64,000 nt of DNA from Perca fluviatilis (Eukaryota > Chordata > Actinopteri > Perciformes > Percidae), in contig NC_053118.1 in the NCBI RefSeq assembly GCF_010015445.1, forward strand, positions 23,661,937 through 23,725,936. Reading direction: 5' to 3'. Below are positions 8,501 through 11,500 of this stretch, in pieces. Positions within the stretch are counted from its first letter, which is position 1; each line of letters begins with the position of its first letter. Under the pieces are notes generated by a model. The model was given only the letters and a program-made list of their open reading frames with translations. It did no database searches and was not told the origin of the DNA. The position numbers were made by a program, and so were the translations under genes.

Positions 8501-11500
8501 TCAGCATGTTAGCATTGTTGTTATGAGCATGTTAGAATACTGATGTTAGCATTTAGCACCACTGTGCCCATGTACAGTCTCAAAGAGCTAGCAGAAGACT
8601 CTTAGTCTTGTTTTGAAAATGATTGGATGATCTTGAAAATATTACATAGACCTATCTGTAGTCCTTCTATTCCAGTAACACTTTTTAAATGATTCTACCA
8701 TTTATTTATTTTTTATTACAAATAAGGCCTCTACAGTGTTTGAGTTTGCCAAACATGCCCATTTGGAGTCCTTGAAGTTCATTGAAAGGTCCTTGAATCT
8801 GATAATGAAGAGAAAGTGGGAACCCTGTGACTGTTGTCCTCTCCCATCTGTTTCTTTCCCGCCCAGCTCACGCCCTCCCCTCCCCTCCCCTCCCTGTTTC
8901 TCTTGTGTTTTTGTTTTGGCTCGCCCCCTCGCACGTCGTCTATGTTTGTGTCTCACTGTATTAATAGTGTGATGGTAATGTCTGGCATGTTTATTAACAG
9001 TGACCTCCCATATCCCTGTCTCCCTCTTTCCCTGCTCTCTCTATCTCCACCTTCCCTCTGTTTTCGTATTCATCCCTGCTCGTCTGTGACCATTAACCCC
9101 AGAATGGCACCCATAACCAGGACCTGTTGGTGTGTGCGTGTGCCGTGGGAGTGGCCACCTGTTTTGCTGCCCCCGTGGGAGGCAAGTCCCGCCCTGCTCT
9201 CTCCCCGCTGACTTCAGTCAGCTCTGTCCTCCTGAAATAACATCAGTAACACAAACGGCGAGGTTAAATCTAACCTCAGACCAGTGCCCTGCATTATTAA
9301 GTGATTAATCAAACTGAATGAATATTTAAACATGCAGATTAGCCTGTCACTAATACCATAGCAGAGCCAGGATTTTAAGTTCTGTCTACTTTAAAGGAAT
9401 TATTTACTTTCCTGCGGAGATTTAGATGAGAAAAAAGATGCCACTCTAAGACATGAGACACGTACCAATCTTTTCATCTAAGTCTTGACAGGAAAACAAA
9501 TATACTTCCCAAAATGTCAAACTATTCCCTTGAAACTGACCTCCGACAATTGACCAGCATTAGCAGTGGTGAATTCAAAGGGGATGAATATTTATTGCAG
9601 ATTAACTGGCCAATTATATGTGAGCCTTGAATTATACAATTATTTCTGCTATCAGGCTTTTCCTGCATCCCAACCCATTTTTGGTAAATCACAGATAAAA
9701 AAAAAAAAATTCTTTCTTAGAATAATAATGCTACACAGATCATAAAAGATACTCTAACTCAAGTTTTGATTTTAGAAAGTTGCATTGAATCCAATAATTC
9801 AAGTCATAAAGGTCATAAATAATCAATGGGAATATTTCCATTAATTTTCAGTCTGCGATCAGTTGCAGGAATCTTCTAAGGAACGATGTAACCACTCGAT
9901 TTGTTTCCCTGATTATTTAATTGCTTACTCTAAGTCTGATTACTCTCACTGGCATGTGCATCCTGTGCTTTATATTGTCTTGATGTGTTTTTTTTTCTCA
10001 TCTTTATCACTTTTTTAAAACCACACTCCAGTGAGCATTATTTATTCACTTTATTCCATTGTGCTTCCTTTCTGTCAATTCTCCCCCTGCGGTTCCCCGT
10101 CCTGTCCTCTCCACCTTGATCTTTTATTCTCTCTTTCTCCAACTCACTCTCCTGTCTTTCTGTCTACGCTCTCGTTCCTTGTCACCTTCATTTTCCCCCT
10201 TCATCATCTCACACCTTTCATCATTGTCTCTTTCAACACTTTATTTCCCTCTTGTTATTTCCCCTCTTCCTCTCTGTTTTCTGTGTCAGTAGAACCATTA
10301 TGGTTACACAGATATTCTGACTGTTGGCTGTGCTGTGGGGGTGGGATGCTGTTTCGGCACTCCACTTGGAGGTACTGTACAACTTACACACTGCCTCATA
10401 CAACCAAAGTCTACAAAGCATCCTTTAATATACAAACATAAGCCAAAACAGCATTATTTACCTAGTTTTCAATTACCATAGAAAGAAAAAACTAGTAAAC
10501 ACTAATTACATATTACATATATCCTTCTTAAATATCATTCTTTTCCCATGCAAGTCTTCTGTTCAGCTGTTTTTGTCTTGTTCACAATAAAGTTTCTGAT
10601 GTGTCTCTCTGATGTTTATTTTATTGCTTCACATACTGATTATGCTTGTGTGTGTGTGTGTGTGTGTGTGTGTGTGTGTGTGTGTTTGTGTGTGTGTTTG
10701 AGAGAGAGCGAGAAAGTGTACATATTTGTGTGTGTTTGAGAGAGAGAAAGTGTACATGTTTGTGTGCGTTTGCTTGTGTTACAGTGTGTGTATTCACTCC
10801 CTGTGGTTCTCCTGTTGTGTATAATTACACCCTCAGCCTCAAGTGTTTTTGGACTCATTCTGTTTGTTTAACTCATTCCTGTCTCTTCTCTCTTTCCCCC
10901 TCTCTCTCCCCCTTCCCTGTTTCTCTCTCCCTCCTCTACTCCTCCTACTCATTGCTCATTTCTCACACTATCCATCTTAATTTTTCCTGTCCTCTTTAAT
11001 CCCTCCCCCTCCCCTCTTTCTCTCTCTCGTTTTTTCTCTACACACCACCACCAGGGGTGTTGTTCAGTATTGAGGTCACGTCTACCTACTTTGCGGTGAG
11101 GAATTACTGGCGGGGATATTTTGCCGCCACATTCAGCGCCTTCATATTCAGGGTGCTCTCTGTTTGGAACAAGGATGCTGGTGAGCACACACACACACAC
11201 ACACACACTGTTGTAAAAGACTGCTGAGCTGGCATTTATGGAAAGTAGCTGAATATGACAGCTAAGTAATATTTGTAATAATTTTCTCTATTATGCGTAC
11301 TTCTTACGGTTTATAAGAATGTTTTCAGTCTTATATTCAAACAAATTCACAACTCTTACTCAACCAGACAGTCCTCTAATATTCACCTTCCCAAACATCT
11401 TACAAGCAAAGGTAGGTTGTCAAATGTCATCTTCTTCTCTAGTTTATATTAATATTTTCCAGATATGTAGCAAAGGGGACACGGTGGTGCGGTGGTTAGC

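Follow-up and report, generated by a model that had tools for sequence, protein, structure and literature searches.

A candidate pair of alternative coding exons for helix G in a clcn1 gene of the perch Perca fluviatilis

The clcn1 gene and its two exons 7

The window analysed here is a stretch of 64,000 nucleotides from Perca fluviatilis, and on its plus strand lies a gene for the chloride channel ClC-1 (clcn1). A human ClC-1 sequence, used as a tblastn probe, gave successive exon matches from 6700 to 22490. Exons 3 to 17 were modelled with boundaries set by hand; the model was ended at position 18376, which is not a splice site, the matches beyond it being to additional C-terminal exons. The gene had originally been predicted to encode a ClC channel, and this can now be narrowed to ClC-1, which was the top match among solved structures for a query of exon 7b and exon 8 (131.7 bits, compared with 111 for ClC-2 and 63.4 for ClC-K). 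Moreover, the modelled protein contains the ClC pore motifs GSGIPE, GKEGP and GxFxP, the last as GAFMP. The features of the gene that matter here are as follows.

6701 to 18376, plus strand: body of the ClC-1 (clcn1) gene, modelled exons 3 to 17 (human probe, tblastn; boundaries by hand)
7819 to 7896, plus strand: exon 6, 78 nt, ending in phase 0 with ...GVYE (exon model)
9103 to 9181, plus strand: exon 7a, 79 nt (homology to 7b, AG acceptor, open frame)
10293 to 10371, plus strand: exon 7b, 79 nt, the canonical exon 7 of ClC-1 (structure match, exon model)
11055 to 11180, plus strand: exon 8, 126 nt, holding the stop reached after double inclusion or double skipping (exon model)

Further open frames were seen in the window. 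That at 5182-5550, outside the model and without a Pfam match, is perhaps the N-terminal exon of this clcn1, judging by its likeness to ClC-2. By eye, the frames at 1-732 and 20315-20662 resemble pieces of a Tc1-type transposase, and the second of them sits between C-terminal clcn1 exon matches. A series of frames at 30058-33186 looks similar to a LINE retrotransposon by eye, with no Pfam match for 30058-31029 or 31608-32012. Pfam gave no match for ten open frames of the window.

Exons 7a and 7b are each 79 nt long, follow AG acceptors, are entered in phase 0 and left in phase 1. They encode segments identical at 13 of 27 residues, including a Gly whose codon ends in exon 8. The exon model and alignment thus reproduce the coordinates, lengths, phases and identity of the original prediction. 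Its placement of the segment at helix G also holds, structure alignment giving residues 259-285 of human ClC-1. Joined singly between exons 6 and 8, either exon keeps all 601 modelled residues (exons 3-17) in an open frame. Inclusion of both leads to a stop in exon 8 after ...RGVVQY, whilst splicing of exon 6 directly to exon 8 leads to a stop in exon 8 after ...LPTLR, exactly as had been traced before. The two exons are adjacent, equal in length, compatible in phase and homologous, the features that mark mutually exclusive pairs, and these suggest that they may be used in a mutually exclusive manner.

Homology, age and constraint of exon 7a

Exon 7a is a true homologue of exon 7b, and chance is excluded. 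The 250 stretches on both strands of the window that are built as AG, a 79-nt open frame and GT or GC were scored against 7b. Exon 7b itself scored 153 and 7a scored 63, with the next stretch at 8. The top score in 15 Markov-simulated windows was 16. When the splice-site condition was dropped, the best other word among 36380 open 26-codon words scored 37.

Relatives of the exon were sought across the 951-Mb genome with PF00654, which yielded 30 matches (48 candidates), and regions were taken around most of them. By similarity, these include a second clcn1 (C13), three clcn2 genes (one on C11, two on C2) and clcnk (C5), the others being more distant ClC genes. The C13 clcn1 likewise has an exon 7 of 79 nt, its intron 6 is 156 nt long and it is without 7a. 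No further 7a-like exon scoring at least 30 against 7a was found, beyond the known exons 7, in the regions of the C13 clcn1 (30 kb), the C11 clcn2 (20 kb) and clcnk (20 kb); the C2 clcn2 regions lay outside this search. A search of viral contigs found 15 stretches that fit a pattern, none of them a relative.

In trees that rest on only 26 codons, 7b and the C13 clcn1 exon form a group that excludes 7a, with bootstrap values of 94 (nucleotide) and 96 (protein). Since 7b groups with an exon whose gene is without 7a, the split between 7a and 7b appears to predate the clcn1 gene pair, which itself probably arose by the teleost genome duplication. An exon of that age that was not under selection would be expected to be unrecognisable by now.

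The position of 7a outside this group is less clear, as three alternative placements are indistinguishable (AU test, P 0.22 to 0.66). Against the three clcn2 exons 7, exon 7a matches at 49, 54 and 53 of 79 nucleotides and at 15, 15 and 13 of 26 amino acids, whereas against 7b it matches at 41/79 and 12/26. This greater nearness would be expected had 7a come into intron 6 as a copy of a clcn2 exon and not of clcn1's own exon 7. We consider such an origin very unlikely, because the tree cannot separate the three placements and because retained ancestral residues explain the same pattern. Exon 7a retains residues found across the family (AVGV..CFAAP), as do ClC-2 and ClC-K.

Random decay was simulated for four of the five relatives by mutating the relative's exon at random until it had changed at as many nucleotides as separate it from 7a, in 20000 runs each. 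The protein score of 7a was reached in 0 runs for 7b, 53 for the C13 exon, 0 for the C11 clcn2 and 18 for the plus-strand C2 clcn2. Random decay would thus have left 7a less like its relatives in protein than it is. Judged by plain identity the result is weaker (P 0.001 for 7b, 0.016 for C13, 0.002 for the C11 clcn2 and 0.030 for the plus-strand C2 clcn2). Moreover, there is no significant excess of third-codon-position differences (P 0.07, 0.43, 0.10 and 0.13, respectively), and the nucleotide branch of 7a is long (0.98). On these three grounds 7a is under weaker constraint than 7b.

The same weak third-position signal and long branch, together with a sister clcn1 that does without 7a, could mean that an exon duplication left 7a behind as a relic without function. 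This we judge unlikely. By the tree the exon is older than the clcn1 pair, yet it remains open and has both an acceptor and a donor, and its protein similarity exceeds that left by decay. To all appearances 7a is old and intact.

We think it rather probable that 7a and 7b arose when an exon of clcn1 was duplicated in tandem long ago, and that both have since been kept to encode alternative versions of the helix G segment. What can be read directly from the DNA in favour of this is the homology, the identical length and phases, the open frame, the intact splice-site dinucleotides and a split that, by a tree which is short yet supported, predates the clcn1 pair. Against it stand the C13 clcn1, which manages without 7a, and the mammalian exon at the same place, which is described as unproductive.

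Splice signals and the mammalian exon 7a

The candidate signals around the two exons are as follows.

9001 to 9102, plus strand: AG-free, pyrimidine-rich stretch of 102 nt before 7a (weak evidence)
9141 to 9209, plus strand: six YGCY (muscleblind-type) motifs over the 3′ half of 7a and its donor flank (weak evidence)
9182 to 9187, plus strand: GC-type donor of 7a, AG/GCAAGT (sequence)
10036 to 10286, plus strand: AG-free, pyrimidine-rich stretch before the tandem acceptor of 7b, 257 nt when counted to the exon (weak evidence)
10287 to 10292, plus strand: tandem acceptor CAGTAG of 7b (sequence)

If splicing used the first AG in the CAGTAG of 7b, a TAG would stand in frame where exons 6 and 7 meet. 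The C13 clcn1 exon 7 has the same CAGTAG (L020, 4009-4014), and a second AG within the last six bases occurs at none of the 15 other acceptors modelled in the clcn1 of the window. Splicing generally prefers an upstream CAG, and given this preference much splicing to 7b could be unproductive unless it is controlled.

The three longest AG-free zones among the 16 modelled acceptors precede 7b (257 nt), exon 8 (211 nt) and 7a (102 nt), with exon 5 next at 99 nt. Similar zones occur at 4 of 13 acceptors in the C13 clcn1 (95 to 249 nt) and at 1 of 12 in the C11 clcn2 (140 nt), and thus the zones before 7a and 7b are a weak pointer to special control. A candidate distant branch point, TATTAAC, lies upstream of 7a at 8992-8998. 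Scored with a donor matrix, 7b has the lowest of 15 donors (3.0) and 7a the fourth lowest. However, the weak donor of 7b is not tied to the presence of 7a, because the C13 exon 7, without any 7a, scores 3.1 on the same matrix.

How might use of the exons be kept to one at a time? Steric exclusion is unlikely and was rejected, because 1111 nt separate 7a and 7b. No U12-type donor was seen by eye against the consensus. Exclusion by pairing RNA was also rejected: there are 11 inverted repeats between the introns, 14 to 24 nt long and 73 to 89% complementary, none of them strong. As far as the sequence tells, the visible enforcement would be the reading frame. We therefore picture, with due caution, a scheme in which 7a and 7b are used singly and the wrong combinations are removed by frameshift and nonsense-mediated decay and not by steric hindrance. 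Exon 7b would be the default muscle form, and 7a, with its GC donor and poorer pyrimidine tract, would be the regulated form.

The 60-nt windows richest in YGCY (5 motifs), out of 2263 scanned, fall on 7a and its donor, which points only weakly to muscleblind. Just 3′ of the donor and touching this cluster we also observed a perfect short hairpin, GCTGAC TTCA GTCAGC, at 9207-9222 of the window. Local RNA folding at 7a does not stand out (z -0.70).

An exon 7a is already known from mammalian CLCN1. For mouse, PMC10082032 describes an RT-PCR product of 345 bp that lacks exon 7a and one of 424 bp that has it, plus two larger inclusion products, and also uses an assay that spans the junction of exon 7a with exon 7; by its account, inclusion causes a frameshift that brings a stop codon into frame in exon 7. 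The difference between the two products makes the mouse exon 79 nt long. A form with this 'cryptic exon 7a' is described as predominant in fetal muscle and as later excluded under the influence of muscleblind (passage in PMC10760957), and binding of muscleblind at the junction of intron 6 and exon 7A is mentioned in PMC4176163, from which the YGCY motif was taken. In human myotonic dystrophy exon 6b and/or 7a is included, and exons 6 and 7 are also excluded, as stated in a passage of PMC5840707. One text words the 7a event as 'in-frame' and yet stop-producing (PMC13044900, in the passage concerned). Moreover, deletion of 7a eliminates myotonia in Mbnl1-knockout mice, according to a passage of a preprint (PMC12458930), whose isoforms, in the passages concerned, include none in which 7a replaces 7; the term 'mutually exclusive' does not occur in it.

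The mammalian exon is thus similar to fish 7a in gene, in the intron between exons 6 and 7, in its length in mouse and in destroying the frame when placed before exon 7. It differs in being described as cryptic, unproductive and spliced before exon 7, and not as an alternative coding exon; no passage found on it treats it as a homologue of, or alternative to, exon 7. The first 11 nt of mouse exon 7a (ACCGTGCCTGG, from an antisense oligo), the only part compared, match fish 7a at 3/11 and 7b at 5/11 positions ungapped, which is no likeness. Among the fish copies, too, conservation is lowest at the start of this exon. Because gene, intron and length are the same, a common origin of the fish and mammalian exons is likely.

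These parallels raise the possibility that 7a is a poison exon in fish too. It would then accompany 7b in the messages of early muscle, or wherever muscleblind is low, and the frameshift and decay would tune the amount of ClC-1, its coding look being inherited. We regard this as possible but doubtful. It would agree with the mouse exon, which is joined to exon 7 and shifts the frame, with the fetal predominance described for a message that contains 7a, with the stop that double inclusion also yields in the fish, and with the GC donor and YGCY-rich windows of 7a. However, a poison exon has no need of a helix G sequence, of an exact phase match or of an open frame into exon 8, and 7a has all three; furthermore, the YGCY cluster is weak and the fold around the exon is unremarkable.

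Position 277, the slow gate and the meaning of the pair

We next consider what a coding exon 7a, the reading that we prefer, would do to the channel. In the alignment to human ClC-1, position n of the exon corresponds to residue 258+n. Relative to the human channel, exon 7a replaces Cys277 by Thr, Gly276 by Ala, Gly280-Thr281 by Ala-Ala and Leu283 by Val. Together with exon 8 it matched the solved structures of ClC-2 at 111.6, ClC-1 at 105.5 and ClC-K at 71 bits.

Cys277 is known from studies of gating, and we take Cys212 of CLC-0 to be its equivalent. In ClC-1, a Ser at this position (C277S) drastically reduces the slow (common) gate. Suppression of slow-gate closure was reported for C212S of CLC-0, and a passage in PMC11276645 argues that some closure persists. 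Cys277 is assigned to helix G in a passage of PMC10604815 and to helix H in a table of PMC4410605. With Tyr at this position (C277Y), both conductance and open probability are reduced, and C277R as well as C277Y causes myotonia.

Exon 7a alters the same position as C277S and C212S. Unlike these point mutants, it carries Thr and, in addition, G276A, G280A, T281A and L283V, and it does so by way of an alternative exon. A natural likeness is found in ClC-K: the bovine protein reads AVGVATVFAAP, with Ala-Thr at the positions of Gly276-Cys277 as in 7a, and the fish clcnk (C5) has Ala-Ser. However, ClC-K is a separate gene, whereas the rest of a channel with 7a is ClC-1. We also note that the divergent clcn2 on the minus strand of C2 (L031, 7051-7137) has Gly-Ser at the 276-277 positions (GVGSCFAAP), this Ser being a naturally occurring equivalent of C277S.

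By analogy with the mutants, the natural guess is that the 7a form is a ClC-1 with weak common gating, bearing in mind that Thr differs from Ser. In such a channel, with Thr 277 and Ala 276, the slow (common) gate would close little and block by zinc would be weaker, and the choice of exon would set common gating per tissue or stage. Alternatively, the 7a form could be a poorly working channel, since Thr differs from the residues tested, Tyr lowers conductance, and Arg and Tyr cause myotonia.

The original prediction knew of no described ClC channel with such a working pair. This calls for a correction: an exon 7a in the same intron of mammalian CLCN1 is known, but not as an alternative coding exon. 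Alternative ClC coding exons, or a CLCN1 exon 7a related to exon 7, do not appear among the open-licence literature matches listed, in their titles and abstract starts. Moreover, 'CLCN' is absent from the main texts of two surveys of duplicated or mutually exclusive human exons (PMC9741552 and PMC5740500), whose gene lists sit in supplements or appendices; the second screened the introns of human genes for exons of this very kind. The pair is probably new. Tandem duplicated, mutually exclusive exons are described in other ion channels, and most human cases are ancient (PMC9741552, in the passages concerned). Those pairs are likewise neighbouring homologous exons that encode one membrane segment, but they belong to channel families other than ClC.

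Were the two exons used as we propose, common gating of ClC-1 in fish would be set by splicing, and through the very cysteine that physiologists have mutated in studying gating. With the balance of our judgement even, we suggest that the exon 7a of myotonic dystrophy may be what remains of a coding exon that served as an alternative in the ClC-1 of ancient vertebrates. Fish would have kept it intact, for a channel that lacks normal slow gating. In mammals the exon would have survived along with its developmental control, but its sole use would be to switch ClC-1 off. If true, this would explain the origin of the exon behind the myotonia of myotonic dystrophy, as a working alternative exon that was turned into a poison exon.
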